A DNA stretch of 64,000 nt from Beroe forskalii (taxonomy: Eukaryota; Ctenophora; Nuda; Beroida; Beroidae): positions 1 through 64,000 of the forward strand of contig WFMF01000125.1 in assembly GCA_011033025.1 (NCBI GenBank), written 5' to 3'. This document shows positions 6,126-64,000 of the stretch, one piece after another. Under the pieces are notes generated by a model. The model searched no databases. It was given only the letters and a program-made list of their open reading frames with translations, and was not told where the DNA came from. Positions within the stretch are counted from its first letter, which is position 1; every line of letters begins with the position of its first letter. Made by a program: the position numbers and the translations under genes.

Positions 6126-6307
6126 ATATCTGACGACGAGGCAGCTGGGCAGAGCTTCGTCTCCACAGTGATCGTGTTGGTTTGCTCGGGGGAGTACAGC
6201 AAACACTCCCTACCAGCCCTGGTGACGGTCTGTGCAGAGCTCTCCACTCAACACAGCTACTTGGAGGGCCTCTGGATCTCTGCCATCAACAGCCCTGCCC
6301 AGTGCGG
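6126..6307 (+). CDS. MED12: MED12 candidate exon (first visible)
   Basis: A pyrimidine-containing acceptor (gattatcttcag) precedes an open frame ISDDEAAGQSFVSTVIVL continuing to VTVCAELSTQHSYLEGLWIS. The 'CAEL...LEGLW' part resembles the CAEL-x-SSEWLGVL stretch that follows the LCEWAV domain in animal MED12. The exon ends TGCGG before GTTAGT, and the 24-bp minisatellite begins at that first intron base. The phase at the end (2) does not fit a simple join to the 7714 exon, so either the donor choice or one base is wrong. The similarity is weaker than for later exons. Confidence 0.55.
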
Positions 6308-9300
6308 GTTAGTGGAAATGTGGGAGTGTAGGTTAGTGGGAATGTGGGAGTGTAGGTTAGTGGGAATGTGGGAGTGTAGGTTAGTGGGAATGTGGGAGTG
6401 TAGGTTAGTGGGAATGTGGGAGTGTAGGTTAGTGGGAATGTGGGAGTGTAGGTTAGTGGGAATGTGGGAGTGTAGGTTAGTGGGAATGTGGGAGTGTAGG
6501 TTAGTGGGAATGTGGGGTGTGGGTAGGGAGTGTGGGAATGGGAGTGTGGGAGTGTAGGTTAGTGGGAATGTGGGAGTGTAGGTTAGTGGGAATGTGGGAG
6601 TGTAGGTTAGTGGGAATGTGGGAGTGTAGGTTAGTGGGAATGTGGGAGTGTGTTAGTTGGTGGGAATGTGGGGTGTGGGTTAGTGGGAATGTGGGAGTGT
6701 AGGTTAGTGGGAATGTGGGAGTGTGGGTTGTGGGAATGTGGGAGTGTAGGTTGGTGGGAATGTGGGAGTGTAGGTTAGTGGGAATGTGGGAGTGTGGGGT
6801 TGGTGGGAATGTGGGGTGGGAATTGGGGTGTGGTTGGTGGGAATGTGGGAGTGTAGGTTAGTGGGAATGTGGGAGTGTAGGTTAGTGGGAATGTGGGAGT
6901 GTGGGTTAGTGTGGGAATGTGAATGTGGGAGGTGGGTTAGTGGGAATGTGGGGTGTAGGTTAGTGGGAATGTGGGGTGTGGGTTGGTGGGAATGTGGGGT
7001 GTAGGTTAGTGGGTGGGAATGTGGGAGTGTGGGTTGAGTGGGGAATGTGGGAGTGAATGTGGGGTGGGATGTGGGAGTGTAGGTTAGTGGGAATGTGGGA
7101 GTGTAGGTTAGTGGGAATGTGGGAGTGTAGGTTAGTGGGAATGTGGGAGTGTAGGTTAGTGGGAGTGTAGGTTAGTGGGAATGTGGGAGTGTAGGTTAGT
7201 GGGAATGTGGGAGTGTAGGTTAGTGGGAATGTGGGAGTGTAGGTTTGGAAATGTGGGGGAATGTGGGAGTGTAGGTTAGTGGGAAAGTGTAGGTTAGTGG
7301 GAATGTGGGAGTGTAGGTTAGTGGGAAATGTGGGGAGTGTAGGTTAGTGGGAATGTGGGAAGGTTAGTGGGGAATGTGGGGTAGGTTAGTGGGAATGTGG
7401 GAGTGTAGGTTAGTGGGAATGTAGGTTAGTGGGAATGTGGGAGTGTAGGTTAGTGGGAATGTGGGAGTGTAGGTTAGTGGGAATGTGGGAGTGTAGGTTA
7501 GTGGGAATGTGGGAGTGTAGGTTAGTGGGAATGTGGGAGTGTAGGTTAGTGGGAATGTGGGAGTGTAGGTTAGTGGGAGTGTGGGAGTGTAGGTTAGTGG
7601 GGATGACAGTCCCTCCTGAACCTCTGGAGCTCCTCAACTGGTGAACTACTCTCTCTGCCCGGTAGTAAGTTGCAGGGTTAATAGCGTGTTGCAGGGTTAA
7701 TAGTGTGTTGCAGGGCTGCGACTTCCTGGTCAAGGAGCTGCTGACATCAGGTGGTTTCTGGCGCTGTGTAACACCCATCAAGCAGCGGGTTAATACCTAA
7801 TGTGCTGTTTAAACGTCTAGTTAAGCAACTTACCAGCATTCTGATACCTCCCAATACTCTCAGAATCTGCTTTAATTTGTCTGCTTCCCCAAGCAGTGAA
7901 GCGTTAAGGAATAATAGCTGTAAGTGTTATACGTGATTCTTAAACATGTGGGCACGTCAACCAACCAGGGCAACAGTAAATGCGCCTCTAAAAGATGGTA
8001 TTTATTGCTCACCACTAGTGTAAAACAGTGAGGTCAATGGTCTCAGAGATGACACACGGTTTTTAAAGTGAGGAAGTGGGCACTGACCACATTGCCTTGT
8101 AAAGCAAGTGGACATGATGCCCTGTGAATGAAGTGGACGCATGAAATCAAGGTGAAACACCCTCCAGTCTGACATGTTCCAAGGTATGTTCTGAGACAGT
8201 CTACACGAGTCCACAACGCTTTCTTTAATTTAGCGCGAAGCTTCACAGCATTCTCAAGCTTCAGAGAAATAGGGGCTTTTCCGGCAGGAAACGATAGTTG
8301 AATATGTCTTTTGTAAAATGTGGGTACCGCCAAGAAAATTTACCATCCCCCTGTCAAAGTGAAATTGGAAATCCAATGTAAATTGAAATTATGTCTGCTT
8401 GCGCCTTGCAAAAGTTTTGTCGCCTGTCGGAGCTTGGTTTCTCAAAATGGACGCAAAATATTAAGTTAAATGAGGTAAAATCATTACTGCTTTCACGAGT
8501 TCCTGATAATTAATTGATGATAGATGGTTTAGTTCGCCCTTCTTGAAATCCAGATTCCAGAGCCCCCTGTACATTTCTTCTGACCCAATCACTAACCAGG
8601 CACTGCACATAAGGTAGCGTATGTCTGCAATTGCTGCCAGTTGCCCACCAGACAAGTTAACTTGGAATTCTGAAATCTCCCTTAACTACAGAATTAGGTA
8701 TAACCACAATTTACTGAAGCTGATTTTTGCAGCTTTTACATAATGGGTTCATCTCTGCGAATTCTCAGGCACTTTAAATGCTTAAAATGGACTAAGTAAC
8801 CACATAATATCCATCTAAAGTTTCTTAAACAGTCAATTTAAAATTCAACATTTATAATACGAAAACATTTTACAATAAAATGTTACAAATTAAAACTAAA
8901 TGTCTCTTCCAGTAACAATTCTGTATACTCATTTCTCGGATCGGGTCGTTGAATAAGAGTCGCATGATTACAATTTATGGCATTAAAGAACCACCTCGTT
9001 TAGATTATGCACTTGTACATGAGAATAAATAAAGTACTCATTAGTTTTAACAATTCTGTGTATACTGTATAGATAGTCGTGATCTCCTACTAGAATATCT
9101 ATCTGTATATAGATAGTCGTGATCTCCGACTAGCAGTCCCTCCCAGAATGTCCAGGTCGTGTATGCTGCCCCTGGGGACGCCCTCTCTGCTCCAAGAGGC
9201 GCAGGTTGCTGTGGAGACTGGACTCCTGCACTTTCTGAGAGTGTTGCCGCGGTGCTGTCTTTTGCCGCGCATCTTGTGCGGGGTCGAGTTCTCTATCACG

Positions 9301-12300
9301 AACTCTCGGGCGCTGGGCATGCGCCACAGGTAGAGGAGGGGGTTGAGGGCGGCGTTCAGAGCCACGCTCAGCACCGCCACGAAGTTGTCGTAGTAGAGCG
9401 TGTAGCCGGGCTGGTAGTCGAAGGAGTGGAAGTCGAAGCGGTAGTCGGTGTGGTAGTCGATAGTGTGGAGTATCTCCGTGACGACTAGCGGCACGTTGAA
9501 GGCGCTGTACACCACTGCGAACAGGATGATGGTCAGTGTGGCCCTGTTCCGGGACCTCCTCAGCTCGGTCTGTCCGGAGCCCTTGCGGAGGTAGAGTTGC
9601 CGCTTCTTGAGGGTAACTCTGATGGAGACGAGGCTGGAGAAGAAGACGAGGAACATGGGAAGGATGAATGAAACCACCCGCACCACGTCCATGTAGAGGA
9701 TGGTCCCCGGGTCCCCCGCCACACTGAAGAGGATGCCGCACCGCGCGAGGCCGGGGTAGAACTGCGCGCGCGCCCCCTGCTCCACTTGGAAGCCGACAGT
9801 CTGGCACACCTGGAACACACTGTACATGAGGATGATGGCCAGGGAGGGCAGGATGCGCTGCTTGCTGAACGGTTTGAGCAGGTAGTAGGTCCGTGAGCAG
9901 CTCAAAACCACCACTAGGAAGATGCTGAGTCTGCTGGCTGCGTGCCAAACATAGGTCCACACCAGACAGATGGACTCGTTACCGAACAGAATGCCTGCGG
10001 AGGGTGGGGAGTTAGAATGGGCGTGAATTTAGTATTAGATCGCTATTCAGTTTCAAGGAATGCTGCCTAGACCCCCCTCAACCCCCTCAAAGGAGTTGCA
10101 GACAGACACCCCCCCCCCGGATTAAAGATGGTGCATCCCCCCCCGGATTTAAGGAGGTACACCCCTACCCCACCCGCTCCCACCCCGGATTAAAGGGGGT
10201 ACACCACCCCCCCCGGATTTAAGGAGGTACACCCCTACCCCTCCCACCCCGGATTAAAGAGGATACACCCCCCCCCCCCCAGACCCCCCCCCCCCCCCCG
10301 GATTTAAGGAGGTGCAGGGTTACCTGGTGCTCTGTCGGAGAGTAGGGATATGGCCACAGCCAGAGCAGCCACGCTGATGACAGCATCCACAGTGGTGATG
10401 ATGGAGTAGAGGGTGTTAGGCAGGTCCTTTCCTGCGGGTCACGAAGTAGCAGAAGCTGGTGAGGTTCCCCACCACCCCCAGCAGGAAGCACACGCAATAG
10501 GCCGCCCCGAACAAGGTGTCCAGGTCCGGGTCGAATGGGGAGGTGGGGAGGGTGGAGGAGAAGGAGGAGGAGTTGGCGCTCAATCGGGGCGTGGTGTTGC
10601 TGGGTTCTGTCATGCTGTGAGGAGTGAGGAGTTAGCCGTTAGTGAGGAGATAGTGAGGGGTTAGCCGTTAGTGAGGAATGAGGGTCTAGGGTCCGTGACG
10701 GGTTTGAGAACGTTATGGGCGCCAGTCAGGATCTGCACAGAATTTTGTGCTGATCATTATGCTTTTTTCCCCGAGTTCCAAATCCGATGTTTAAGCCTTT
10801 CAAATCGCACTTAAAGATTGCTTAAAAATGGTCACGTGATAGGCAACTCCCTGGCTTAATATTGAATTAAGGGTATCAATATATATTGGATAATTGCGTT
10901 ACTCGCCATTTTGGCAACCATCACCACAACACCCAATCAGACGCTGAACGCGGAAGTCAATTGGGAAGAGGAACGCGCCATGTCTCATGATTGAGTTATC
11001 GGCTGTCTAACTGTGAGCACAGCGTTTGCTAACAATAACAATTATCGGAAAGGGGAGATAATCGCTCTATAATAATAGGCGGTTGTCTATGACATCATTA
11101 TCATGGTTGAAAATGGCATGTATACGATATTAAGCCGCCGATTGTCCTTCTCGGACTAACGGATCGTATCCGTGTTTGTGTGTGGGTCAATGTATTATGT
11201 GTAACATATCCACATTGTGTGTAACACCACATAATATCATCACGATCACATTGCTCCAGCATCAAGCTATGAGATCAGAGATACGACGTGATCAGCGCAT
11301 ACGGAATTTTACCGTATACTAGAAAAACTTCAGGGCTCAGGAAATTGAAAAACATCGTCATAGCATTAAATCTCAAGCCTTACCCATATTAGGTATGTAA
11401 TATTGGTAAGAATCTTAAAGGTTTGTATAAATTTCCGTATCACCACCAATGTGAATATCATCTTTATAGTAGAGTAGTAGGTACAGTAGGTTAAGGTAGG
11501 TACCTTATACCTACCTAATAGTTATACGTCTGATTTTTTTCAAAATGATGCGTGAATCCATTATAAAGTCATTGTTAAAACCGTATTATATACATTTATT
11601 AGAGTACCTATTAGGTATTGCGCCATTTTGAGATTGTGGAAGGAATCTTAATCTGAAGCTGATCAATACGCAATATCTGTGTCGTCAAGAAATTTAGCCC
11701 CTAATAATATGGCTTACTGTCTTAATGAGGCCGACAACCAGCATCCTATCTAGTGTAATTCGAACTCTTGGCCTATTTTGTCAGACTAATCTAAATTATT
11801 AATAGGTCATGTATTGCCTTAGTTCTCTCATTTCAGTAATGGACAATTACGATCCTCTCATTAAGGAATAGTCATAGAATATGAGCCTTATTAATCAGAA
11901 TCATTTCCTCACATGCAGACAGAAGCGTAGATATGAGAGCTGATCTGGAACCAGTGATGAAGACACCCAATACCTAACAATCGTCGAATTCGAAACGTCA
12001 CTATATTTGAAGGGCCTATAAAATGAATGAACAGAGAAAGGTGATAATCATTTATCTATACTTATCTTCATTTCTGCCAATGTCATCTGTTGGTCTACAA
12101 GGAGTTGTTGATTTAGATTTGTCATTTTCGTTGCCTTCGCATGTCCCAGTGCACAGAGACATTCTGCAGTACTGCTTGCGACGGAGAACAGAGCTGGTTG
12201 AGTCTGGAAAGGAGCCCAACAACATTTCTACAAGTTCCCTGCTGTCCTATGTAGTTAACGAGCTCCATGACTTCTACCAGCCACATGTTGTCAAGCTCAA

Positions 12301-57300: not shown

Positions 57301-60300
57301 TCATTCTGCCTCACCTCATGACACAGGTATGCAGGATCCACCTCATTCCACCTCACCTCATGACACAGGTATGCAGGATCCACCTCATTCTACCTCACCT
57401 CATGACACAGGTATGCAGGATCCACCTCATTCTACCTCACCTCATGACACAGGTATGCAGGATCCACCTCATTCTACCTCACCTCATGACACAGGTATGC
57501 AGGATCCACCTCATTCTACCTCACCTCATGACACAGGTATGCAGGATCCACCTCATTCTACCTCACCTCATGACACAGGTATGCAGGATCCACCTCATTC
57601 TACCTCACCTCATGACACAGGTATGCAGGATCCACCTCATTCTACCTCACCTCATGACACAGGTATGCAGGATCCACCTCATTCTACCTCACCTCATGAC
57701 ACATGCAGGTATGCAGGATCCACCTCATTCTACCTCACCTCATGACACAGGTATGCAGGATCCACCTCATTCTACCTCACCTCATGACACAGGTATGCAG
57801 GATCCACCTCATTCTACCTCACCTCATGACACAGGTATGCAGGATCCACCTCATTCTACCTCACCTCATGACACAGGTATGCAGGATCCACCTCATTCTA
57901 CCTCACCATGACACAGGTATGCAGGATCCACCTCATTCTACCTCACCTCATGACACAGGTATGCAGGATCCACCTCATTCTACCTCACCATTCTGACACA
58001 GGTGATGCAGGATGCAGGACCTCATTCTACCTCACCTCATGACACAGGTAGGATCCAGGATCCACCTCATTCAGGATCCACCTCACCTCATGACACAGGT
58101 ATGCAGGATCCACCTCATTCTACCTCACCTCATGACACAGGTATGCAGGATCCACCTCATTCTACCTCACCTCATGACACAGGTATGCAGGATCCACCTC
58201 ATTCTACCTCACCTCATGACACAGGTATGCAGGATCCACCTCATTCTACCTCACCTCATGACACAGGTATGCAGGATCCACCTCATTCTACCTCACCTCA
58301 TGACACAGGTATGCAGGATCCACCTCATTCTACCTCACCTCATGACACAGGTATGCAGGATCCACCTCATTCTACCTCACCTCATGACACAGGTATGCAG
58401 GATCCACCTCATTCTACCTCACCTCATGACACAGGTATGCAGGATCCACCTCATTCTACCTCACCTCATGACACAGGTATGCAGGATCCACCTCATTCTA
58501 CCTCACCTCATGACACAGGTATGCAGGATCCACCTCATTCTACCTCACCTCATGACACAGGTATGCAGGATCCACCTCATTCTACCTCACCTCATGACAC
58601 AGGTATGCAGGATCCACCTCATTCTACCTCGCCTCATGACACAGGTATGCAGGATCCACCTCATTCTACCTCACCTCATGACACAGGTATGCAGGATCCA
58701 CCTCATTCTACTTCAGGATCATTCCTCATGACACAGGTATGCAGGATCCACCTCATTCTACCTCACCTCATGACACAGGTATGCAGGATCCACCTCATTC
58801 TACCCCACCTCATGACACAGGTATGCAGGATCCACCTCATTCTACCTCACCTCATGACACAGGTATGCAGGATCCACCTCATTCTACCTCACCCACTGTC
58901 TCCCTGCAGTTGAAGCGTTTTGTGGACGAGGTGAAAGACATTGAGAGTCTGGCAGAGCGCCAAGTGGAGCAGGTCAATGTGGCCATCCACTTCCGACTTT
59001 CTCTGGTGGGCGCGCACTTCCACAACATAGTGGCAAACAACAACCTGGTGAGTGGGTTTATAGTTTATAATGTAGTGTGCGGTTACAAGTTGAAGTGGTG
59101 ACCGTATACCGCGACTTACACCGTCGAGGCGACAGCCGAGACTGTGTTTGCAGGATAATTGCCGAGGCGTCCCGAGTTCATTATCGAAGGTAAACGGTCA
59201 CAGCCGAGATCATCGAACCGGATTAAAGACCGACCGGAAATAGCTGAGAATAAACAGAAGTATTCATTCTCACTCTGGTCTAACGACATTTGTCCGGATT
59301 CAATGCTTGAGTATATAGATTTTTGAGAACTCCTTTATAAAATCAAATTTCATTTGAAGCTTTTTGCGCTGTAAGTTAGTGGAGACCTTAAAACCAAACT
59401 TACACGGTCGCTAAAACACGCTAGGAATGAATATTGATACATTAAATAAAGGCAACCTAGAATAAATTAATTGAGGAATAAATAAATAGGTCATTAAAAT
59501 CGTTAACTACAACTTATACAAAATCATACACAAAAGATTGCGAATGCCGCATTACCGCTCACCAGAAGGAAATGAAAAAGAAAACTTTTTGAAGAATATG
59601 AAGAAGAAACAGCTATACACAATGTGTATTGCTGTTTTTGAGGAAGCAGGGCACTGCCAAAGGATGTGTATTACACATCCTTTGGCAGTGCCCTGCCTTC
59701 TCTGAAATTAGACAACAAATGTACGGCAAAACCGAACTAGGTCTCAACGATATCAAGAGAGAATCTGTTAGGAAAACTATCAAGGACATGTCAAGCTTTT
59801 TGACAGATCTAAAGTCCTAGAAAGACCCGGTAAAGACTCTCTCTCTCTCAAAAAAGCAGAAAAGTTAAAAGAGATTCCACTATCAAAACAGTTCAGTACG
59901 AACTACAAATCCACAATCACAATAACAAAACATTTTGACAGTGTATTCCAACATGATATTGGCATTACTCACTCACACCACAATTCAACAGCAAAAGGTA
60001 TGCAAATAGAGGATTAAACTAGATGAGTTGACGATAGAGCACAAAGTGACTTTGATGGGATGTTTCAGGAGAAGTAGTGGAGTTTAGGCAGAGTAACAAT
60101 GCCACCTCCCTCGTGTTCCCTCTCTAACGCTTTTTGTAAAACAAAAAGGCGTTGGAGAGGGAACAATTAATAATGTTTAAATGAGGCATGTGACAAAGTC
60201 CTTGCATCATGACTGCTATCAATTTAGTGTTGTCACTTCCTCACTTCCCCTCAGAAGTTGGACTGGGGAATCCTCCTCCTGCGCCTCATCAGACACCCAG

Positions 60301-63300
60301 CTGTGGACAGCACCAGGTTGGGGGAGGGGGTTCTCTTCTACTCAATCCTTGACATGCTGGCAACCATCACAGAGCCCCTCGAGACAGTGTGTTACTCCGC
60401 GGAGGACGCCACTGCCAGAACCATGTTCTTCAAGAAGATCTGCAACGAGATACACGATGTGGACAACCCTGTCAACCTCCAGGTGGGGACACCTTAGCAA
60501 CTTGACACCAGGTACTTTGACACTAGGCACTTTGACACCAGGTTGCTGGTGAGAGATTGATCAGTGACACCAGCTTGTTGTTGACACCAGGTTGCTGTTG
60601 ACACCCGATTGTTGTTGACACCAGATTGTTGTTGACACCAGGTTGGTGTTGACACCAGGTTGGTGTTGACACCAGGTTGGTGTTGACACCAGGTTGGTGT
60701 TGACACCAGGTTGGTGTTGACACCAGGTTGTTGTTGACAACAGGTTGCTGTTGACACCAGATTGTTGTTGACACCAGATTGTTGTTGACACCAGGCTGTT
60801 GTTGACACCAGCTTGTTGTTGACACCAGGTTGTGGTTGACACCAGGTTGTTGTTGACACCAGATTGTTGTTCACACCAGGTTGATGTTGACACCGACTTG
60901 TTGTTGACACCAGGTTGTTGTTGGCATCAGCTTGTTGTTGACACCAGCTTCTTGTTGAGATATTGATCATGACACCAGGTTGTTGTTGACATCAGGTTGT
61001 TGTTGAGATATTGATCAGTGACACTAGATTGTTGCTGACACCAGCTTGTTGTTGAGATATTGATCAGTGACACCAGATTACTGTTGACACCGGCTTGTTG
61101 TTGACACCAGGTTGTTGTTGACACCAGGTTGTTGTTGACACCAGAATGTTGTTTGCACCAGGGTCCAGGTTGATGTTGACACCGACTTGTTGTTGACACC
61201 AGGTTGTTGTTCACACCAGGTTGTTGTTGAGATATTGATCAGTGACATCAGATTGATGTTGAAACCAGCTTGTTGTTGACACCAGATTGTTTTGACATCA
61301 GCTTGTTGTTTACACCAGCCTGTCGTTGACACCAGGTTGTTGTTGACACCATGTTGTTGTTGACACCAGGTTGTTGTTGACATCAGGTTGTTGTTGACAC
61401 CAGCTTGTTGTTGACACCAGGTTTTTGTTGACACCACCTCGTTGTTGACACCAGGTTGTTGCTGACACCACTCACCAGCTTGTTGTTGACACCAGGTTGT
61501 GGTTGACACCATGTTGTTGTTTACACCAGGTTGTTGTTGACACCAGCTTGTTGACAGAACTCTCCGGCAGGTGCGGCAGCTCCTGAGAATACCGCTGTTT
61601 AAGCAGGAAATCACTGTGGTGGAGCACACCAGTGTCAATGAGGAGTGGAGTCAAAGGCAGCCTCCTCAATACGAACAGCTTTACCCAGGTATGCAGGAGA
61701 ACCTTATTCCTAACACTAACCCTCTTAACCTCACCCCTCCTAACCCTAACCCTCTTAACCTCACCCCTCCTAACCCCACCACTCCTAACCCACCCCTCCT
61801 ATCCTCACCCACCTACCCTCACCCCTCCTAACCCCACCAATCCTAACCACACCCCCTCCTAACCCCACCAATCCTAACCACACCCCCTCCTAACCCCACC
61901 AATCCTTACCACACCCCTCGTAACCCAACCCCTCCTAACCCCTCCCTCCTAACCCCACCCACCTAACCCCACCCCTCCTAACCCCACCAATCCTAACCCC
62001 ACCCCTCCTATTCTCACCCACCTACCCTCACCCCTCCTAACCCCACCAATCCTAACCACACCCCCTCCTAACCCCACCAATCCTAACCACACCCCTCCTA
62101 ACCCCACCAATCCTTACCACACCCCTCCTAACCCCACCAATCCTAACCACACCCCTCCTAACCCCAACCCTCCTAACCCCACCCCTCATAACCCCACCCC
62201 TCCTAACCGCATCCCTCCTAACCCCACCCCTCCTTACCCAACCCCTCCCAACCCTCCTTATCTCACCCCTCCAAACCCCACCCCTCCTAACCCCACCCCT
62301 CCTATCCCACTCCTCCTTACCACACCCCGCCCAACCCAACCCCTCCTAACCCCACCCCTCCTAACCCCTCCTTACCACACCCCTCCTAACCCCACCCCTC
62401 CTAACCCCTCCCTCCTAACCCCACCCTCCTAACCCCTTCCCTCCTTATCCCTTCCCTCCTAACCCCTCCTAACCCCTTCTCTCCTCACCCCTTCCCTCCT
62501 AACCCAACCCCTCCTAACCCCACCCCTCCTAACCCCTCCTTACCACACCCCTCCTAACCCCACCCCTCCTAACCCCTCCCTCCTAACCCCACCCCTCCTA
62601 ACCCCTTCCCTCCTATCCCATTCCTCCTAATCCCTCCTTGCTTCGCCCCTCGTAACCCCTCCCCTCCTTACCTCCCCCTCTTAACCCCACTCCTCCTATC
62701 CCACCCTCCCTCCTAACCCCACCCCTCCTAACCCCTTCCCTCCTATCCCATTCCTCCTAATCCCTCCTTGCTTCGCCCCGCCTAACCCCACCCTTCTAAC
62801 CCACCCCTCCTTAACCCTCCTTACCCCTTCCCTCCTAACCCCTCCCCTCCTAACCCCTCCTAACCCCACCCCTCCTAACCCCTCCTAACCCCTCCCCTCC
62901 TAACCCCACCCCTCCTAACCTCTTCCCTCCTAACCCCTCCTAACCTACCCCCTCCTAACCCCTTCCCTCGTAACCCCACCCCGCCTAACCCCACCCTTCT
63001 AACCCACCCCTCCTAACCCCTCCTTACCCCACCCCTCCTAACCCCTCCCAACCCCTCCTAACCCCTCTTTCCCCCTCAGAGCTGAAGCCGGAGGGCTACG
63101 TGCCAGTGAGCAAGCACAGCGTGTCCCCGTGGGAGTTGGTGGAGGGTGCAAAGGGCGGCTGCAACGTGGTTCCTTGGCAGGAACTGGGGGCTGTCAGATA
63201 CGACAAGCAGCCCCACAAGATGGAGGTGACTTAAGTGGCATCTGACTATTATGCGATTATTATCATATTAAACTTATTAGGCGATTTTAGTGGGATCCTG

Positions 63301-63539
63301 ACTGTCAGTGGCATCCTTGCCGCTTTTTGAACATAGTTAGTGTTTCTAGTCGTCTGCTGGTAATTCCCTCACTCTTCCCTCCTCAGGAGCGGCTGTGTGT
63401 CAATCTCCGGGGCCACACCCACGAGCCACCTCCTCTGGAACACGAGCTCGTCCACATCCCCTCGGCCCCCAAACCCAAAGTGGACCCCCTCATGCCTCAG
63501 CAGTTCCCTAACTTCCACAACCCTCACCAGCTGCTCATG
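6126..63539 (+). CDS. MED12: MED12, Mediator kinase-module subunit 12 (partial gene, gene-level entry)
   Basis: MED12 links CDK8/cyclin C and MED13 to core Mediator and activates the kinase in the nucleus. Collinear exons were recognised by similarity to animal MED12. They are 6126-6307 (tentative), 7714-7788 (tentative), 31327-31516, 35946-36114, 38970-39187, 41256-41408, 41585-about 41690, about 57100-57242, 58910-59047, 60255-60482, 61571-61688, 63080-63225 and 63387-63539. Reading phase is continuous across every junction from 31327 to 41408 and from 57242 to 63539. Diagnostic segments in family order are SLSLFVILLLRYQCF, VLKSICSQTWVPELCL, MDRWTMRSAHLEVRL, HFRLSLVGAHF, DWGILLLRLIRHP, KHSVSPWELVEGAKGG and GHTHEPPPLE. 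The N-terminus with the LCEWAV domain lies left of the window and the Gln-rich tail lies right of it. Introns reach more than 20 kb and hold two opposite-strand genes and most of the minisatellites. At least one small exon between 41690 and 57100 may have been missed. Confidence 0.88.
6308..7602 (+). repeat. 24-bp G-rich minisatellite starting at a 5' splice site
   Basis: The unit is gttagtgggaatgtgggagt plus gtag, about 50 copies with some deletions. The first copy begins exactly at the intron's GT. Every copy joins the next as TAG|GTTAGT, a donor-like junction. Confidence 0.93.
7668..7713 (+). repeat. three tandem copies of a 3' splice site
   Basis: ttgcagggttaatag occurs at 7670 and 7689, and the third ttgcag (7708-7713) is the acceptor of the 7714 exon. 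The period is 19 bp. Confidence 0.75.
7714..7788 (+). CDS. MED12: possible small MED12 exon
   Basis: A 75-nt open segment reading GCDFLVKELLTSGGFWRC lies between a strong acceptor (gtgtgttgcag) and a possible donor GTTAAT. It falls in the right place between the CAEL exon and the 31327 exon. Its phase fits neither neighbour cleanly, and the residues are not clearly conserved. The acceptor is present in three tandem copies just upstream. It could be a real exon, an alternative exon or coincidence. Confidence 0.35.
7789..9098 (+). other. MED12 intron, no gene seen
   Basis: Single-copy AT-rich sequence with only short unconvincing open frames. A 23-bp direct repeat (atagatagtcgtgatctcc) occurs at about 9069 and 9109, just downstream of the GPCR stop. 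Confidence 0.45.
9099..9994 (-). CDS. class A (rhodopsin-like) GPCR, exon 2 with TM3-TM7 and tail
   Basis: This is the last coding exon of an orphan class A receptor in the plasma membrane. The acceptor ccctccgcag precedes GCATTC at 9994, and the stop is at 9099. TM3 is followed by LSCSRTYYLLKPF, where DRY is replaced by SRT. TM6 is LTIILFAVVYSAFNVP, with CWxP degenerate. TM7 is NAALNPLLYLWRM, an NPxxY motif followed by a WR pair. A Ser/Arg-rich cytoplasmic tail follows. No ligand can be inferred. The gene is nested on the opposite strand of a MED12 intron, and its coding part is more GC-rich than its surroundings. Confidence 0.85.
9995..10323 (-). repeat. GPCR intron filled by a C/G-run minisatellite
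   Basis: On the plus strand, five or so diverged copies of ccccggatttaaggaggtac alternate with runs of C. On the gene's sense strand the donor GTAACCCTGCACCTCC is itself a diverged copy of the unit start (GGGGTGTACCTCC). The array therefore begins within a few bases of the 5' splice site. Confidence 0.7.
10324..10614 (-). CDS. class A GPCR, exon 1 (N-terminus, TM1-TM2), frameshifted
   Basis: The start codon is at 10613, right after an acceptor (cctcacag), which implies an upstream 5'UTR exon. The N-terminal stretch is Ser/Thr-rich with an NTT glycosylation site. TM1 contains GVVGNLTSF, the conserved GN. After FVTRRK the frame breaks near 10425: one extra G in the AAAGGACC run gives an early stop. 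The other frame continues DLPNTLYSIITTVDAVISVA through TM2 to the donor CACCAG|GTAACC, in phase with exon 2. This may be a sequencing indel or a real null allele. Confidence 0.75.
10615..10687 (-). repeat. short array upstream of GPCR exon 1, cut by the transposon
   Basis: Repeated gttagccgttagtgagga (plus strand) leads up to the GPCR acceptor. On the sense strand it is CT-rich and reads as a polypyrimidine tract. The same agtgaggag motif resumes after the transposon at 20017-20042, so the element split this array. Confidence 0.6.
10688..11360 (+). repeat. left terminal inverted repeat of the transposon
   Basis: About 670 bp, matching the reverse complement of 19331-20006 almost throughout. 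The low divergence means the two ends are young or kept alike by gene conversion. Confidence 0.9.
12023..19104 (+). CDS. multi-exon transposase-like gene of the 9.3-kb transposon, partly decayed
   Basis: Exons with good GT/AG borders and matching phases are 12102-12321 (or from ATG 12023), 13020-13199, 13457-13640, 13992-14277, 14658-14798, 15058-15167, 15419-15608, 15827-16009, 16364-16530 and 16756-16933. Two further parts are about 17536-17695 and the final one, about 18820-19104. Landmarks are KIVVLGCDGTSVNTGW, then QLAVCILHTCELPLRGLW, then FLSHTQPVERNIALM. They resemble a group of uncharacterised invertebrate proteins ending in 'CHTQAVERCVKLVTEAS'. Asp in 'GCDGT' could be catalytic in an RNase H-like fold, but this is inference. 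The C-terminal exon needs two frame changes to join EPPLTREL to the HTQPVER block, so this copy is probably inactive. Confidence 0.7.
12380..12985 (+). repeat. 19-bp minisatellite in the first transposase intron
   Basis: About 30 copies of ttgttatagtccgtattca with point changes and occasional 2-bp insertions. It fills nearly the whole intron between the exons ending 12321 and starting 13020. Confidence 0.9.
14376..14557 (+). mobile_element. MITE-like repeat, copy 1
   Basis: It starts gacattaattcatctcacg and ends gagatgaaatg, forming inverted ends. The interior is CTAACCC-like (aacctaacccagactcaaac). Related copies lie at 16047-16187 (opposite orientation) and 17702-17915. All three sit in introns of the transposase. 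Confidence 0.6.
16047..16187 (-). mobile_element. MITE-like repeat, copy 2
   Basis: Ends gacatttcacctca and gaggtgaaatgtc are inverted. The interior ggttagggtctgggttaggg is the reverse of the other copies. Confidence 0.6.
17110..17460. mobile_element. foldback (inverted-repeat) element
   Basis: The arm near 17112-17220 (key block gttcctcgtttccgatttt, then aggcaattctcc) is repeated in inverse near 17335-17450 (aaaatcggaaacgaggaac). The arms are about 110 bp and diverged, with a spacer of about 115 bp. It lies between the transposase exon ending 16933 and the part starting near 17536, where the coding frame is hard to follow. Confidence 0.7.
17702..17915 (+). mobile_element. MITE-like repeat, copy 3
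   Basis: It begins gacatttcatctcaggacac and ends gtgagatgaaatgtc. Its interior aaatcctaaccataacccag is shared with copy 1. It follows the transposase exon ending near 17695. Confidence 0.65.
18170..18790. other. dense field of short palindromic motifs
   Basis: There is no simple period. Instead, 8-14-bp self-complementary words such as gataattatcgc, agcgctt and ttattaacggt recur in both orientations. It occupies an intron-like gap before the last transposase exon. Similar but shorter patches lie at 13790-13915 and 17012-17065. Confidence 0.5.
19331..20006 (-). repeat. right terminal inverted repeat of the transposon
   Basis: Reverse complement of the left repeat, with a few substitutions and small indels (for example the ATCAACATG segment near 19570). 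Confidence 0.9.
20055..20133. repeat. 38-bp inverted repeat with 3-bp spacer
   Basis: The left arm ends ctggagaaactacag, then gat, then ctgtagtttctccag. The arms are identical except for one base near the outer end. It lies just outside the transposon's right end. Confidence 0.9.
20642..20751. repeat. 33-bp inverted repeat around a 43-bp loop
   Basis: gatatgagaaagaacgcgac with ggttaaaact is mirrored by agttttaaccgtcgcg with tcctttctcatatc; there is one base of difference in length. The stretch 20134-20641 between the two hairpins has short open frames but nothing I recognise. Confidence 0.85.
20800..21435 (+). repeat. 13-bp minisatellite, left part
   Basis: About 48 copies of caaccaaatgtct with variants (gtgtcaacc, tttctcaac). 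A LINE interrupts the array at 21436. Confidence 0.9.
21436..25133 (-). mobile_element. 5'-truncated non-LTR retrotransposon (LINE), decayed
   Basis: The minus strand reads an apurinic-type endonuclease remnant (NVYDSPVNSSY, LLCGDFNARTG, SDHRPLI) from 25133 to about 24590. Then come a linker and reverse transcriptase: FIDFRKAFDTV and GTEQGHPMSPELFKIYL near 23300-23500, and WADDLVLLA near 23170. The C-terminal part has KALCRLRASNYNLNCETGRY and EQHFLVSCPAYHP. Stops and frameshifts break it. The 3' tail is a TTATTC microsatellite at 21436-21452. AACATAA flanks both ends (21429-21435 and 25134-25140). The endonuclease N-terminus is missing. Confidence 0.9.
25134..26290 (+). repeat. 13-bp minisatellite, right part, with an inverted block
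   Basis: Continuation of the caaccaaatgtct array after the LINE. Longer higher-order blocks recur, for example 'ctcaacataatgtcctgacc' several times. From about 26155 to 26207 the units are inverted (gaggcatttggttgagacat), with a CTCGAG palindrome at the switch. Confidence 0.9.
26566..26762 (+). repeat. 19-bp minisatellite
   Basis: About ten copies of ggttacaacctgttgccat. The frame is open by chance. Confidence 0.9.
27251..27950 (+). pseudogene. decayed MULE-type transposase fragment
   Basis: A 230-codon open frame ends in VIILATNDNLPL. Shifting frame once gives SSRYLDGTFKSSPN, and once more FYQILILDADSPHT. Together they resemble the start of the MULE domain ('..FaT..nl..l..DGTFk..p..fyQl'). 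A 48-bp stretch encoding LHLAPGDCQTLRQAD is tandemly duplicated. It is probably an old transposon remnant rather than a host gene. Confidence 0.45.
27951..29279 (+). other. intron sequence with small duplications
   Basis: No gene seen. At 28866-28958 there are four copies of ttaattgaaatgtctgaag. The following block (ctcgcatccctcctgtacct, then cctacgacgg) is repeated in diverged form at 29120-29180. A near-palindrome aaccacagtagtacag / ctgtactgtggtt lies at 28340-28375. Confidence 0.5.
29330..29545 (+). repeat. 25-bp palindromic-rich minisatellite
   Basis: Seven or eight copies of acgtaccgtattacgtacta plus acata. Each unit contains tacgt/acgta self-complementary words. Confidence 0.9.
29546..30788 (+). 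other. intron sequence, nothing recognised
   Basis: AT-rich single-copy DNA upstream of the duplicated MED12 acceptor. I found no supported open frame. Confidence 0.4.
30789..30829 (+). repeat. extra copy of a MED12 acceptor plus exon start
   Basis: ccccaggaagctgcctgagg and the next 20 bases repeat 31321-31360 without a mismatch over about 40 bp. It is then followed by the C-rich array rather than coding sequence. Confidence 0.9.
30830..31320 (+). repeat. C-rich degenerate array before a MED12 acceptor
   Basis: Irregular units of cccccctcactaac and variants, with tttgttttagcccc inserted three times. On the sense strand it forms a very long polypyrimidine-like tract ending at the acceptor of the 31327 exon. 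Confidence 0.85.
31327..31516 (+). CDS. MED12: MED12 exon (SLSLFVILLLRYQCF segment)
   Basis: The acceptor is a C-rich tract ending in ccag, and the donor is GAG|GTGAGC. One leading base is followed by 63 codons, including WWRSLSLFVILLLRYQCF and later HVAHLMLALFTE. This matches the hydrophobic helix pair after 'SFHDSLATFVAIL' in animal MED12. The exon ends in phase 0, as the next exon requires. Its first 34 nt with the acceptor also occur as a separate copy at 30789-30829. Confidence 0.85.
31877..32105 (+). repeat. 46-bp minisatellite, five copies
   Basis: Unit landmarks are ctatcaatcttagtgttctt, cttctagttcatgc and taacccttaa. Confidence 0.9.
32190..32976 (+). repeat. 14-bp array of CACGTG E-boxes
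   Basis: About 55 copies of tgatcacgtggtac, with tggtcacgtggtac variants. Each copy carries the palindrome CACGTG, and most also carry TGATCA. The unit is almost entirely made of short palindromes. Confidence 0.95.
33470..33762 (+). repeat. 21-bp minisatellite
   Basis: Fourteen copies of gggaaaaggaggatttgaca plus t. The period is a multiple of three, so several frames on both strands are open. I see no sign of a gene. Confidence 0.92.
33763..35830 (+). other. MED12 intron, no gene seen
   Basis: Single-copy AT-rich sequence with short open frames only. Confidence 0.4.
35837..35914 (-). pseudogene. tRNA-like sequence (tRNA-Asp-like, probably SINE head or tRNA pseudogene)
   Basis: The minus strand has an A box TGGTGTAGTGGTA, an anticodon-region TTTGTCATGCAACCG resembling tRNA-Asp (GTC), and a perfect B box GGTTCGATTCC. 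The T stem has mismatches and the acceptor stem does not pair, so it is unlikely to be a functional tRNA. It lies about 30 bp upstream of a MED12 exon on the other strand. Confidence 0.55.
35946..36114 (+). CDS. MED12: MED12 exon
   Basis: The exon lies between tatcccag and C|GTGAGTGTGG and translates to VEYAAETQTLDAAIGSHSAF and on to MLKLLIRNSAVEKDIPPAH. It corresponds to the MED12 segment just before 'VLRSICQQEW'. It starts in phase 0 and ends in phase 1. A 42-bp minisatellite starts with the donor bases. Confidence 0.8.
36115..37440 (+). repeat. 42-bp minisatellite starting at a MED12 donor
   Basis: About 31 copies. Unit landmarks are gctgtgaaaatactaccaga, tctactcagaacctaattag and ggg. The first unit is the donor itself: GTGAGTGTGGAAATACTACC, of which later copies (GTGAAAATACTACC) are shortened forms. 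Confidence 0.93.
37988..38133 (+). repeat. 20-bp minisatellite, seven to eight copies
   Basis: Near-identical copies of cactcaggaactcttagtaa. Confidence 0.93.
38165..38965 (+). repeat. CT-rich array ending at a MED12 acceptor
   Basis: Irregular units of ctctttaccccc and variants (ctcttcacccccac). The array runs into ctctctcctcag of the 38970 exon and could serve as an extended polypyrimidine tract. Confidence 0.9.
38970..39187 (+). CDS. MED12: MED12 exon (VLKSICSQTWVPELCL)
   Basis: The acceptor is ctctctcctcag, following an 800-bp CT-rich array. The exon opens in phase 1 with HLQPLAVLKSICSQTWVPEL and continues to HNAQSLLHLICNPAAP, a clear match to the MED12 'VLRSICQQEWV...AQRLMQLICYP' region. 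It ends ATCTTAAAG|GTGGGT in phase 0. The 18-bp array begins with the donor. Confidence 0.9.
39188..41205 (+). repeat. 18-bp G-rich minisatellite starting at a MED12 donor
   Basis: About 110 copies of gtgggtgtggactgtgga. The donor GTGGGTTGTTCGGTGGGG and following ACTGTTAA form a diverged first copy. Each unit boundary reads GGA|GTGGGT. The longest open frames, including a 682-codon one on the minus strand, are repeat by-products. Confidence 0.95.
41256..41408 (+). CDS. MED12: MED12 exon (MDRWTMRSAHLEVRL)
   Basis: Exactly 51 codons run from cttcag|ACA to ACAGAG|GTAGGT. TMDRWTMRSAHLEVRLIRVL corresponds to the 'LDQWTMRQSSLELQLM' helix of MED12. The last 35 or so coding bases plus the donor are duplicated once, 56 bp downstream, inside the intron. 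Confidence 0.9.
41373..41475 (+). repeat. two-copy duplication of an exon/donor junction
   Basis: tgtagtctccactctcagtc with agctccttacagaggtaggt (ending at donor 41409) recurs as tgtagtctcctcctacagtc with aactccttacagaggtaggt (donor 41465). The offset is 56 bp. Confidence 0.92.
41585..41690 (+). CDS. MED12: MED12 exon (WLLPTFINKL), 3' border unclear
   Basis: The acceptor is tactccccctcag. IAKGGCKNATLWLLPTFINK then LHDQVKDQLMQWLGE matches the MED12 '[20 protein letters not shown]' segment. The frame closes at a stop at 41705. The only nearby donor is a weak GTTTTT at 41691, so the 3' border is approximate. Confidence 0.75.
41700..42790 (+). other. AT-rich region downstream of the SLC7 stop
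   Basis: It holds a 78-codon plus-strand open frame at 41806-42042 with no recognisable similarity. For the transporter (minus strand) this is the likely 3' UTR. I see no clear polyadenylation signal. Confidence 0.35.
42794..43368 (-). CDS. SLC7 CAT exon 5 (last TMs, C-terminus), frame break
   Basis: It begins ISGGTLVVFIVTAVAVMILS after catgtttcag. TLFCVLMLVFLGCTVVLSCL follows. The C-terminal part WKVPLKERELQ, then LSVLVNCILLLHLEVRALQQ and LVVGAAVYFGYGVFF, lies in another frame. The join lies between 43095 and 43150. A hidden intron of about 50 nt with a CT-rich tract is possible. Confidence 0.78.
42794..47934 (-). CDS. SLC7-type cationic amino acid transporter (CAT), gene-level entry
   Basis: This is a multi-pass plasma- or lysosomal-membrane transporter of the APC superfamily. 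Exons on the minus strand are 47790-47934 (start codon 47931), 47418-47541, 45418-46076, 43648-43889 and 42794-43368. Phases agree across all four introns. The order of landmarks is typical: CLTLWPLIVQGMAHMLGAG then GIFVVTPSIV (TM1), GPATCVSYLVSGVAAGLSV, GSAYVYTYFSVGEMG, GIAFFAFVGLESVVTLAEEA, VYSIAEDGLLFPFL and VGAAVYFGYGVFFSRV near the end. Substrate is not decidable from sequence. Within the last exon the frame must change near the TCC run (about 43095-43125). That is either an indel or a mini-intron ending gctggaag. The gene lies opposite a MED12 intron. Confidence 0.88.
43648..43889 (-). CDS. SLC7 CAT exon 4
   Basis: LVVSQYLVTAGLIFTVFSCG and VYSIAEDGLLFPFLCEVNPT, then PIWNTLVCCLLGVLSSILYD, ending SHM at donor ATATG|GTTAGT. 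AEDGLLF is a CAT hallmark. Confidence 0.9.
43900..45300 (-). repeat. minisatellite of about 47 bp on the acceptor side of SLC7 intron 3
   Basis: On the plus strand: gggggcagagcttactcaat, ggagggagggggctatttgc, taataca, about 30 copies with deletions. The acceptor of exon 4 (sense: ctgtataatagccccctcct then acgcag) is a diverged unit end. Confidence 0.92.
45418..46076 (-). CDS. SLC7 CAT exon 3 (TM3-TM7 core)
   Basis: The 659-nt exon starts GTATTCCTGCACAGG after ctaccag. It codes YSCTGSAYVYTYFSVGEMG, GFFLIGELLIQAPMLAVGVA, LIFAGINMVGIRSISCLN and ATGLSFFIVLTIYVVTAF, ending SLKSK before GTTATC. It contains the 'F(Y/F)AFVG' helix typical of CAT proteins. Confidence 0.92.
46090..46550 (-). repeat. 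31-bp minisatellite in SLC7 intron 2, part 1
   Basis: Plus-strand unit gggggtattattccttataa, gggcatcacgt, about 15 copies. CACGT words recur in each. Confidence 0.92.
46551..47337. mobile_element. dispersed repeat, copy 1, splitting the 31-bp array
   Basis: 46600-47220 is about 75-80% similar by eye to 54275-54880: tgctatggaaacc, cgtgcagattataa, aacggaggata, ttcctggcctgg and actaactgac-like blocks in the same order. It interrupts the array, whose units resume at 47338. Hairpins gcaggcccaacgggcctgc and ggcgcgaagcgccgcc lie near its end. There is no coding signal, so it is a non-autonomous element of unknown class. Confidence 0.6.
47338..47417 (-). repeat. SLC7 intron 2 donor side: array remnant plus decayed copy of exon 3 start
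   Basis: 47338-47383 has one and a half units of the 31-bp array. Next to the donor, GTATTCCTGGATACTTCTCT and ATGGGGGCTGCC mirror exon 3 GTATTCCTG...TACTTCTCCGTGG...ATGGGGGCGGC with an internal deletion of about 23 nt. Confidence 0.75.
47418..47541 (-). CDS. SLC7 CAT exon 2
   Basis: IFVVTPSIVQNTAGPATCVS through LCYSDLAAR, the TM1-TM2 region. The acceptor is caacccccag and the donor CAGCCAG|GTATTCC. The first intron bases GTATTCCTG are the same as the first bases of exon 3. Confidence 0.88.
47790..47934 (-). CDS. SLC7 CAT exon 1 (start codon, TM1 start)
   Basis: The acceptor cttagcctcag is followed three bases later by the ATG at 47931, so an upstream 5'UTR exon is expected beyond the 47945-49115 array. 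The exon encodes MGYNLQPPSLRERLFQVKAD through TLWPLIVQGMAHMLGAG. The donor GGGGCAG|GTAAGG has a second copy (GGAGCAG|GTAAGT) about 36 nt into the intron. Confidence 0.85.
47945..49115 (-). repeat. 17-bp minisatellite upstream of SLC7 exon 1
   Basis: About 70 copies of gtgtcagaggggaggg and variants on the plus strand. On the transporter's sense strand it is ccctcccctctgacac, a pyrimidine-rich tract that ends at the exon 1 acceptor. G-runs on the plus strand could form quadruplexes. Confidence 0.93.
49116..49728 (+). other. single-copy intron sequence
   Basis: No gene seen. A local inverted similarity exists between 49366-49450 and 49510-49600 (aataaatctttattgctgag versus ctcagcaataaagatttact). 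Confidence 0.5.
49730..52700 (+). repeat. 20-bp minisatellite, about 147 copies, nearly homogeneous
   Basis: The unit is ggaatgtgttgctcaatgct. Almost all copies are identical; variation is mostly small deletions or partial units. Three long open frames (up to 943 codons) result from the repeat and its frame changes. Confidence 0.97.
52701..54104 (+). other. intron region with small local repeats
   Basis: No gene seen. gattatcagtaaagaaca followed by atattttatcttgtgccagt occurs at 53378 and 53489, with a shorter relative near 53173. Around 53680-53765, cacctgcgaca words occur in both orientations. Confidence 0.5.
54105..54210 (+). repeat. short array of about 15 bp units
   Basis: ggtacaatgtacttt and ggtacaatgtacatc alternate about seven times. 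The units contain palindromic tgtaca. Confidence 0.85.
54275..54900. mobile_element. dispersed repeat, copy 2
   Basis: Partner of 46600-47220, same orientation. Shared blocks are gagaaacgaa, tgctatggaaac, gatctcaagatgg, aataacggaggata, ttcctggcctgg and ctccttcataaaat. No coding potential is conserved between the copies. Confidence 0.6.
55430..56450 (+). repeat. degenerate minisatellite with CAGGTCT motifs
   Basis: Mixed units of gtgcaggtctgatgcaggtt and tggcacgggtcta. Most contain GCAG|GTCT, which is weakly donor-like. It lies in the MED12 intron before the 57100 exon. Confidence 0.9.
57100..57242 (+). CDS. MED12: MED12 exon whose 3' end founded a minisatellite
   Basis: The frame reads EWLGDGSWWENDFTFCENVS, then HPLLTLMTGCLSSRIHLILP and HLMTQ, ending ACACAG|GTATGC. 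Joined to the next exon it aligns without gaps to the MED12 'VLTCLKG...LLTSLYSQVHQIV' region. This supports the donor at 57242, so the first repeat unit is coding sequence. The 5' border is uncertain: acceptors gactcaag (57087) and cctgcag (57099) are both possible. Confidence 0.72.
57205..58905 (+). repeat. 42-bp minisatellite built from a MED12 exon/intron junction
   Basis: About 40 copies. The unit is atccacctcattctacctca, cctcatgaca, then CAG|GTATGCAGG. The first copy is the coding end of the exon and the last runs into the acceptor of the 58910 exon. Since 42 is a multiple of three, the first eleven or so copies remain in the exon's frame (RIHLILPHLMTQVC). Confidence 0.95.
58910..59047 (+). 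CDS. MED12: MED12 exon (HFRLSLVGAHF)
   Basis: Forty-six codons lie between gtctccctgcag and AACCTG|GTGAGT: LKRFVDEVKDIESLAERQVE then QVNVAIHFRLSLVGAHFHNI. This matches 'LKLRLNLVGGMFDTV' of MED12. It starts and ends in phase 0. Confidence 0.92.
59500..59830 (+). pseudogene. possible LINE C-terminal remnant
   Basis: HILWQCPAFSEIRQQMYGKT at about 59680-59740 resembles the end of LINE reverse transcriptases ('hxLwxCP.....R'). A perfect 25-bp palindrome cuts the frame just before. It is short and broken, so the assignment is weak. Confidence 0.35.
59646..59696. repeat. perfect 25-bp palindrome with 1-bp centre
   Basis: gcagggcactgccaaaggat with gtgta, then t, then tacac with atcctttggcagtgccctgc. 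Both arms match completely. Confidence 0.95.
60115..60164. repeat. 23-bp near-perfect inverted repeat
   Basis: gttccctctctaacgctttt, tgt / aca, aaaaggcgttggagagggaac, with a 3-bp spacer and two differences. Confidence 0.85.
60255..60482 (+). CDS. MED12: MED12 exon (DWGILLLRLI / ILDMLATI)
   Basis: Seventy-six codons run from ttcccctcag to CTCCAG|GTGGGG. LDWGILLLRLIRHPAVDS and FYSILDMLATI match the MED12 'EWAMLLLEIIISGTVD...FTTVLDMLSVLI' segment. Later residues TMFFKKICNEI match 'YMNLAKKLQKEL'. Confidence 0.93.
60490..61560 (+). repeat. 17-bp minisatellite between MED12 exons
   Basis: About 60 copies of ttgacaccaggttgttg and variants, many with CCAG|GTTG. It occupies the intron from the donor at 60483 to the acceptor at 61570. 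A longer variant, gagatattgatcagtgac, recurs four times. Confidence 0.93.
61571..61688 (+). CDS. MED12: MED12 exon (VRQLLRIPLFKQ)
   Basis: The exon runs from actctccggcag to CCCAG|GTATGC and begins VRQLLRIPLFKQEITVVEHT, the counterpart of MED12 'VRQLLPLPKQTRDVITCEP'. It ends in phase 1, which fits the next exon. Confidence 0.92.
61700..63065 (+). repeat. C-rich array filling a MED12 intron up to its acceptor
   Basis: Irregular copies of cctcctaaccccacc and variants run from just after the donor CCCAG|GTATGC to the acceptor of the 63080 exon. They form a pyrimidine tract on the sense strand. Confidence 0.92.
63080..63225 (+). CDS. MED12: MED12 exon (KHSVSPWELVEG)
   Basis: The acceptor tttccccctcag ends a 1.3-kb C-rich array. 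ELKPEGYVPVSKHSVSPWEL, then VEGAKGGCNVVPWQELGAVR and YDKQ, match MED12 'STKQKISPWDLFEGLK...WGWFGTVRVDRR'. The exon ends ATGGAG|GTGACT in phase 0. Confidence 0.93.
63387..63539 (+). CDS. MED12: MED12 exon (GHTHEPPPLE), last visible
   Basis: The acceptor is ttccctcctcag. ERLCVNLRGHTHEPPPLEHE corresponds to the conserved '[25 protein letters not shown]' boundary before the low-complexity tail. A donor ATG|GTTTGT ends a 51-codon exon. Its coding part 63450-63501 is repeated at 63547-63598 with a 97-bp offset, in another frame. Confidence 0.82.
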
Positions 63540-63598
63540 GTTTGTAGTGCACATCCCCTCGGCCCCCAAACCCAAAGTGGACCCCCTCATGCCTCAGC
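63450..63598 (+). repeat. duplication of a MED12 coding segment across the exon end
   Basis: ccacatcccctcggccccca and the next 30 bases at 63453 recur at 63550. The offset is 97 bp, so the second copy is in another frame and lies beyond the presumed donor. Confidence 0.9.
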
Positions 63599-64000
63599 TA
63601 GGGTATAAGACGATTAAGTGTCACTCTTGCAGTGAGTTGCTGGAACTGGAAGGTGCCATTATGCTATTCCCAGCCTGTTTAAATAATCATAAAATAGAAA
63701 TACCCCACGAATATTTTGCGACTGCATTCCCGTATATGTTCTGGTTTCTGCGTTTGCTGGTTAACATCATTAGCTTGGAGACTAGCCGTGTCTCTGGAGC
63801 CAGGTCACTTCTCCCGGCATAGCCTAAGGAGTAGAATTTAAACACTCTGGCTCTCAATACTGAGCACTGTAGGATGCTTAGTATTCCCTAATCCCTACTA
63901 ACAGCTCCCCAACTCAGTATTCCCTAATCCCTGCTTCCCCTCAGTGTTCTCTATTCCCTGCCCCCCTTCAGTGTTCCCTAATCCCTGCTCCCTCTGTGTT
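63599..64000 (+). other. intron sequence at the right edge with a starting tandem repeat
   Basis: It has a short open frame of no recognisable family. From about 63870 the words cagtattccctaatccctgc and cagtgttccctaatccctgc recur at about 20-40 bp spacing, probably the start of another acceptor-side CT-rich array. Confidence 0.5.

Follow-up and report, generated by a model that had tools for sequence, protein, structure and literature searches.

The stretch of DNA analysed here (the window) comprises positions 1 to 64,000 of contig WFMF01000125.1 of the ctenophore Beroe forskalii (C165:1-64000 in the searched genome of 216.1 Mb and 1134 contigs), and it carries tandem-repeat arrays that lie against, or run across, the splice junctions of its genes. 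The earlier note on this DNA had named the genes as MED12, an SLC7 transporter and a G-protein-coupled receptor (GPCR), and these identities are borne out: the best match of MED12 is PDB 8tq2_C (E 2.3e-29), exon 45407-46096 of the SLC7-family cationic amino acid transporter matches CAT1 (PDB 9uat_A, E 1.7e-22), and the exon next to intron 10323-9995 matches PF00001, the rhodopsin type of GPCR. Because their flanking exons align in succession to 8tq2_C, five MED12 junction pairs are well placed, namely those of introns 39188-41255, 57243-58909, 59048-60254, 60483-61570 and 61689-63079, the last with a three-residue gap. The upstream MED12 exons 6126-6307, 31327-31516 and 35946-36114 have open frames and plausible splice sites, with weak or no match. 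The SLC7-family junctions were placed by frame continuity, by the CAT1 match of exon 45407-46096 and by AA_permease matches of exons 45407-46096 and 43531-43929; those of the first exons follow the CAT1 sequence.

Several details of these genes complete the picture of the locus. In the GPCR, junction 10615 was not confirmed as an ordinary acceptor. An acceptor-like CTCACAG is found at 10613 (-), immediately before the likely ATG of the gene, and could be a leader acceptor if the animal trans-splices. The frame of the same gene shifts at about 10410-10430 (-), between VTRR and KDLPNTLY, which reflects an assembly error, a tiny intron or a lesion. No second MED12 copy for allele comparison was found in the genome with the query 58890-60500, whose matches besides the window itself were one interspersed repeat and two short matches within C165. 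One MED12 intron contains, at about 59079-59425, a repeat some 350 bp long that has dozens of genome copies at about 80-84% identity and is tandem at C271:81014-83950.

Tandem Repeats Finder (TRF) reported 131 rows for the window, and tandem repeats make up 41.8% of it; since the corresponding figure for 20 kinesin loci is 12.2%, the window must be regarded as an outlier in tandem-repeat content. The earlier note had listed 13 junctions at which an array begins or ends, and this holds for ten of them, nine with an array edge within 25 bp and one that is spanned. The donors with a close edge are 6308 (array from 6307), 36115 (36120), 60483 (60502) and 61689 (61708), and the acceptors are 31326 (array ends at 31324), 38969 (38948), 63079 (63067), 43890 (array edge at 43899) and 47935 (47944). 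Donor 57243 is spanned, as its array begins within the exon at 57205, 38 bp ahead of the splice site. The remaining three have no array edge that close: the array begins 67 bp downstream of donor 39188, with degenerate copies between them visible by eye; it is 42-45 bp distant from the GPCR donor 10323; and acceptor 10615 has no TRF array, only about two degenerate copies seen by eye. When the 27 merged window arrays of at least 100 bp are considered together, a known junction lies within 25 bp of an array edge in 10 cases and not in the other 17. The observation is largely real, but its cases were selected.

Among the 13 window introns with both ends placed, nine hold arrays, seven of these with an edge within 25 bp, and four MED12 introns consist of array over 95-99% of their length (39188-41255, 57243-58909, 60483-61570 and 61689-63079). 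The statement that most introns hold an array is thus correct for the window; it is not for introns sampled elsewhere (28/98, see below). Similarly, the statement that the unit often includes the splice site applies to clear cases elsewhere and for the most part not to the window, where a near copy of the junction-centred 40-bp sequence (score at least 20) was found for 1/13 donors (57243) and 0/13 acceptors; outside that set, donor 41410 reaches a duplication score of 27.5 of 40 and donor 6308 one of 19.5. Most window arrays stop at the splice site without containing it. The repeat units differ among loci, in the window and in the genome sample, and for this reason a single mobile repeat is excluded, as had been proposed. 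The features of the window are as follows, a slash marking the exon-intron boundary.

6126..6307, + strand: probable MED12 exon, an open frame with donor 6308 (G/GTTAGT); only 4.8 bits to 8tq2_C.
6307..7605, + strand: array of the 24-bp unit GGTTAGTGGGAATGTGGGAGTGTA from donor 6308, with donor-like GGTTAGT recurring in every consensus unit (TRF).
30871..31324, + strand: C-rich array, its units resembling CCCCTCACTAACCC, that stops 2 bp short of acceptor 31326 (TRF).
36120..37441, + strand: array of a 43-bp unit, beginning 5 bp into intron 36115-38969 (TRF).
38406..38948, + strand: array of CTCTTTACCCCC in the same intron, 36115-38969, that stops 21 bp short of acceptor 38969 (TRF).
39255..41246, + strand: G-rich array of an 18-bp unit, 96% of intron 39188-41255 (TRF; junctions by homology).
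41390..41480, + strand: two-copy duplication of exon end plus donor (TCCTTACAGAG/GTAGGTCCCAA), seen by eye, with no TRF report.
57205..58893, + strand: junction-spanning array (a "mirage", a term taken up below) of about 40 copies of a 42-bp unit that holds the exon end and donor (ACACAG/GTAT); it fills 99% of intron 57243-58909 plus 38 bp of exon (TRF; flanking exons align gap-free to MED12).
60502..61553, + strand: arrays of units TTGACACCAGGTACT and TGACACCAGGTTGTTGT, 95% of intron 60483-61570 (TRF; junctions by homology).
61708..63067, + strand: array of TCCTAACCCCACCCC, a unit that includes branch-point-like CTAAC, 98% of intron 61689-63079 (TRF; homology on both sides, with the three-residue gap).
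63450..63600, + strand: exon sequence copied immediately past donor 63540, seen by eye; the junction-centred window of this donor scores only 10.5.
43899..45294, - strand: array, 90% of SLC7-family intron 45417-43890, edge 9 or 25 bp from the acceptor (TRF).
46139..46544, - strand: array of a 31-bp unit in SLC7-family intron 47417-46077, edge 17 or 62 bp from the acceptor (TRF); the donor end of this intron repeats the start of the downstream exon (GTATTCCTG), and similar array units occur at both of its ends.
47944..49113, - strand: pyrimidine-rich array of a 16-bp unit (sense ACCCCTCCCCTCTGAC) that stops 10 bp short of the acceptor of what is likely the first coding exon in the SLC7-family gene (TRF).
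10107..10278, - strand: degenerate array in GPCR intron 10323-9995, 42-45 bp from the donor (TRF).

Two other regions of the window contain arrays. A reverse-transcriptase remnant (PF00078) at 23199-23621 (-) lies between two arrays, at 20800-21431 and 25138-26284, that have the identical 13-bp unit AATGTCTCAACCA; remnant and arrays may belong to one retroelement or insertion. In addition, the contig starts within an array (1-3850 and 4669-5331) whose 51-bp unit contains the strong donor-like sequence CCAAG/GTAAGGG. This may be another junction array, its exon lost beyond the contig end.

An independent sample of introns was taken from 48 loci of the kinesin (PF00225), myosin head (PF00063) and dynein DHC_N2 (PF08393) families, which were located by a profile search of the genome. 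Neighbouring matches guided the placement of junctions, with frame, continuity of the profile and splice-site score as criteria, so that these introns are inferred by homology; of 117 obtained, 98 were kept and 19 (9 with arrays) were dropped for weak or ambiguous junctions. The recent duplicates L039 and L040 were counted separately in the edge tests. PF00664 (15 matches, of little use for introns), PF12774 (86 matches) and PF00069, whose matches are mostly whole-domain in a single frame, stayed outside the sample. Many of the protein-kinase domains (best 124 of 744 candidates) match fully within one open frame, and single-exon kinase genes therefore appear to be common in this genome.

Arrays are present in 28/98 sampled introns, and 17 of the 28 have an array edge no more than 15 bp from a splice site (6 at donors, 12 at acceptors). 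If arrays were placed uniformly inside the intron, 5.1 such introns would be expected, and none of 2000 simulations gave a number as high as that observed. Among the 40 arrays in these introns, nine overlap an exon (3 at donors and 6 at acceptors), several of them by no more than 3-6 bp. The repeat unit plainly includes the junction in L025, L050, L030, L042 and L006 (L006 being outside the 98). In L025, a 56-bp unit consists of TTTCAG/ plus the first bases of a kinesin exon, and the array extends over about 2.9 kb; in L050, a 55-bp unit present in 12 copies consists of the last 45 exon bases plus the donor; in L030, a 34-bp unit with the acceptor occurs in 8 copies; and L042 has a 32-bp unit at one donor and another unit at one acceptor of the same gene. 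These results support the proposal that tandem duplication beside or across splice junctions has occurred repeatedly and independently in many genes. Among the dyneins, an identical exon fragment (AAA_6 positions 1-28) recurs at C441:53156-53708 and 60117-60372, mostly at a spacing of about 86 bp, and judging from the coordinates it is apparently an exon-bearing tandem array.

The earlier note went further and suggested that splice junctions are hot spots, in which case duplication should be denser at junctions than in the intron interior. It is not. Array coverage is near zero in exons, reaches about the intron level within approximately 20 bp of the junction and then stays roughly level with no peak: before acceptors it is 0.084 in the first 10 bp and 0.12-0.18 deeper, and after donors it is 0.033 in the first 10 bp and 0.06-0.11 deeper. 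A TRF-free measure, the presence of a near copy close by in 40-bp windows, gave 4/98 donors and 8/98 acceptors compared with a mean of 11.0% in the interior (91 introns); by the same measure the window gave 1/13 donors and 0/13 acceptors compared with 47.7% in the intron interior. Neither line of evidence supports the hot-spot suggestion. On the other hand, exons and introns differ strongly. In the 20 kinesin loci, TRF arrays cover 285/14919 exon-matching bases (1.9%); the figure is 21.4% for the bases of kept introns and 12.1% for the remainder. Across all 98 introns 19.9% of bases are array (14.5% if L025 is left out), and the average for single introns is 11.3%. The array content of introns is at background or somewhat higher, and arrays are excluded from exons. 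When arrays spread in introns and stop at exons, their edges consequently pile up at junctions. A fairer null was one that allows a unit to extend into an exon by as much as its own length, and against it the donor edges show no excess (4/40 vs 2.67, p=0.26). The comparison with shuffled positions that had been called for thus yields a clear enrichment under the simple null and a smaller one when overlap is allowed. Short direct repeats able to seed slippage show no excess beside junctions in 52 array-free introns. A causal role of junctions as hot spots is unnecessary for most of the edge enrichment.

Comparisons between related genes bear on the turnover of arrays. The dynein loci L039 and L040 are found on a single contig in opposite orientations, and their exon stretches are identical (60/60 and 100/100). 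The first part of their intron still matches at 137/141 positions, yet the two introns measure 871 and 707 bp, and their arrays differ in structure; both arrays include an internal copy of the acceptor together with the beginning of the exon. In this pair the array has changed much faster than the adjoining exons. A 759-bp intron with an acceptor array in myosin L030 has at the same position in L033 a 146-bp intron with no array, and dynein L048 has an array where L047, at the same intron position, has none. Array-bearing introns are probably mostly old.

Based on the results presented above, vigorous local tandem amplification that is tolerated in introns and across junctions and blocked by exons is the best-supported account, and we consider it probable. 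Local tandem duplication and the growth of arrays would proceed at a high rate in this genome. Within genes, arrays would survive, through selection, where harm is small, in introns and also across splice junctions, the latter because a duplicated donor or acceptor would leave the outermost original site usable. Arrays would extend through introns and halt at exons, and slippage or unequal exchange may be the mechanism. Where the first duplicated unit spans a junction, its copies would carry the splice site, as in the amphioxus "mirage"; where the seed came from the branch-point region, acceptor-side arrays would hold branch-point-like motifs. Several results weigh against this account. By bases, introns hold somewhat more array than the remaining sequence. 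Acceptor edges within -10..+15 remain in excess under the fairer null (10/40 vs 2.67, p=0.0003), and acceptor arrays overlap exons more often than expected (6 vs 2.73, p=0.048; donors 3). Furthermore, the four array-filled introns of the window keep only 16-76 bp outside arrays; since the shortest of the 98 sampled introns is 107 bp, unique sequence must also have been lost. The edge figure is given for the wider interval because the bin -6..+10 (10 vs 1.75), one of several tried, was picked after the data had been seen. The excess is kept at TRF thresholds of 50 and 40, is weaker at 30 (p=0.01), and is also found when all 117 introns are retained (10/49 arrays vs 3.53, p=0.0025). By family, however, it amounts to 1/9 arrays in kinesins, 2/14 in myosins and 7/17 in dyneins, two dynein cases being the recent duplicates. 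We take the acceptor edge excess to be real but not yet general, and a special role of the 3' splice site is possible.

A mutational explanation would be that breaks, R-loops or boundary slippage make tandem duplication especially frequent at junctions, and most of all at 3' splice sites, which would then be its hot spots. The acceptor excess, which survives the changes of threshold and sample, and the 17/28 introns with an edge within 15 bp are what it would predict, and the composition of acceptor arrays also speaks for it. With CTRAY, a general branch-point-like motif and not one derived from this species, as a proxy, 13 acceptor-anchored arrays contain 1.66 sense-strand and 0.011 antisense-strand motifs per 100 bp (p=0.004), 9/13 carrying the motif; the corresponding densities are 0.29 and 0.30 in 19 interior arrays and 0.17 and 0.56 in 8 donor arrays. 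We nevertheless regard this explanation as unlikely: neither coverage nor local duplication peaks at junctions, donors lack an excess under the fairer null, short seeding repeats are no commoner near junctions, and the acceptor excess comes mainly from dyneins. The narrower proposal that 3' splice sites are a preferred birthplace of minisatellites, a branch-point and acceptor module being amplified gene after gene, has a modest chance of being right; if so, such "branch-point minisatellites" would replace most of an intron and could serve as multi-branch-point acceptors. The CTRAY bias itself fits copying of the branch-point region. Another reading of the same bias is that arrays are kept since repeated splice signals (branch points, polypyrimidine tracts, donors) aid splicing. 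Acceptor arrays have a raised C content (p=0.017) in addition to the strand-biased motif, acceptors within arrays tend to be weaker (7 cases, p=0.054), and tandem UACUAAC repeats associate with splicing factor 1, according to the accessible text of PMC3116199. This reading is improbable, as donor and interior arrays have no excess of the motif on the sense strand, and the units of an array preserve CTRAY no better than they preserve other 5-mers (mean rank 0.37 for 9 instances in 8 arrays, p=0.11). There is therefore no sign of selection on the repeated motif, for which the origin of the seed suffices, and selection for repeated branch points was rejected on this ground.

The arrays might instead mark newly gained introns. 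In the AGGT model, for which a potato RNA-dependent RNA polymerase is reportedly an example, introns are gained by tandem duplication of AGGT-bearing exon sequence, and human introns are likewise said to have arisen from tandem arrays. As in such gain, tandem copies here bear splice signals, four window introns are almost wholly array, and SLC7-family intron 47417-46077 shows the expected direct repeat. However, the model predicts new introns with matching donor and acceptor flanks, and flanks alike in register (score at least 10) occur in only 2/111 introns, this SLC7-family intron (intron 2) and one myosin intron, compared with 0.09 expected; at a lower threshold there is no excess (8/111 vs 9.0). 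Position and phase are shared with a paralog in 4/17 junction-array introns and 15/70 array-free introns, a comparison of low power. Intron gain as a common cause was rejected on these two results, and it is hardly a likely general explanation, although intron 47417-46077 may be a candidate for birth by tandem duplication. Finally, the pattern could be an artefact of tandem-repeat detection, of assembly or of pyrimidine-rich sequence near acceptors. TRF edges do vary with the strand (17 vs 62 bp in SLC7-family intron 2, and 25 vs 9 bp in intron 3), but units of 32-56 bp with exon sequence are visible by eye and acceptor arrays are not significantly richer in pyrimidines than interior arrays (p=0.14), which makes an artefact very improbable.

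Tolerated local amplification has its closest parallel in amphioxus. Tandem repeats that span exon-intron boundaries were named "mirages" in amphioxus Adh and also occur in globins, troponin C and PGBD5, where splicing is apparently unharmed, according to the accessible portions of PMC3087553 and PMC3902484. As far as those portions describe them, they are minisatellite-like, lie at 5' and 3' boundaries and have a different unit in each gene, as here; their units range from tens of base pairs to about 160 bp, with unstable copy number. In Beroe, units contain the exon-intron boundary (9/40 exon overlaps; L025, L050, L030 and L042; 57205-58893), donor and acceptor boundaries are both affected (3 and 6 overlaps), each gene has its own unit, and length instability between copies is seen in one pair only (L039/L040); judging from the sequence, the DNA-testable features of mirages are present. 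The amphioxus portions cover a handful of genes, some with reverse-transcription PCR, whereas here 98 introns were sampled with controls from DNA alone, in a different animal and with arrays of up to about 3 kb. In human, the accessible text of PMC10809524 gives 792 introns inside tandem repeats, some of which share one repeated site as donor and acceptor. It describes array units with AG/GT-type splice sites in UBC and VCX3A, as here, the arrays being spliced out with an intron length that is a multiple of the unit; its dual-specific site serves both ends, while in Beroe the donor and acceptor arrays usually differ. In Cryptococcus, repeat expansion took in splice sites, as here, and generated new introns, and the accessible part of PMC2395259 describes copies of whole near-identical introns within one gene, whereas here parts of one junction are copied. 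For the ctenophore Hormiphora, the consulted section of PMC8527503 reports 13% tandem repeats by TRF, close to the 12.2% of the kinesin loci. A literature search, with most subscription journals outside its reach, found no work on minisatellites at ctenophore splice junctions; what is new here is the taxon, the number of genes and the controls.

Two further observations concern other genes of this genome. In COX1, on C1134, TGA reads as tryptophan; compared with the best PDB match, AGR codons coincide with arginine at five positions and ATA codons with isoleucine at several. Given this usage, the genetic code looks like table 4. Innexin matches above the family cut-off are found on eight contigs, and the combination of innexins and a divergent COX1 of table 4 points most likely to a ctenophore.

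The presence of junction-spanning minisatellites in several gene families of a non-bilaterian animal suggests that the "mirage" of amphioxus is no peculiarity of cephalochordates. Introns of this kind naturally carry anything from one to dozens of copies of their own donor or acceptor, and they are useful for asking how the spliceosome chooses among identical sites. The idea that junctions attract duplication now has numbers and controls, which mostly favour tolerance, the acceptor being a possible exception.

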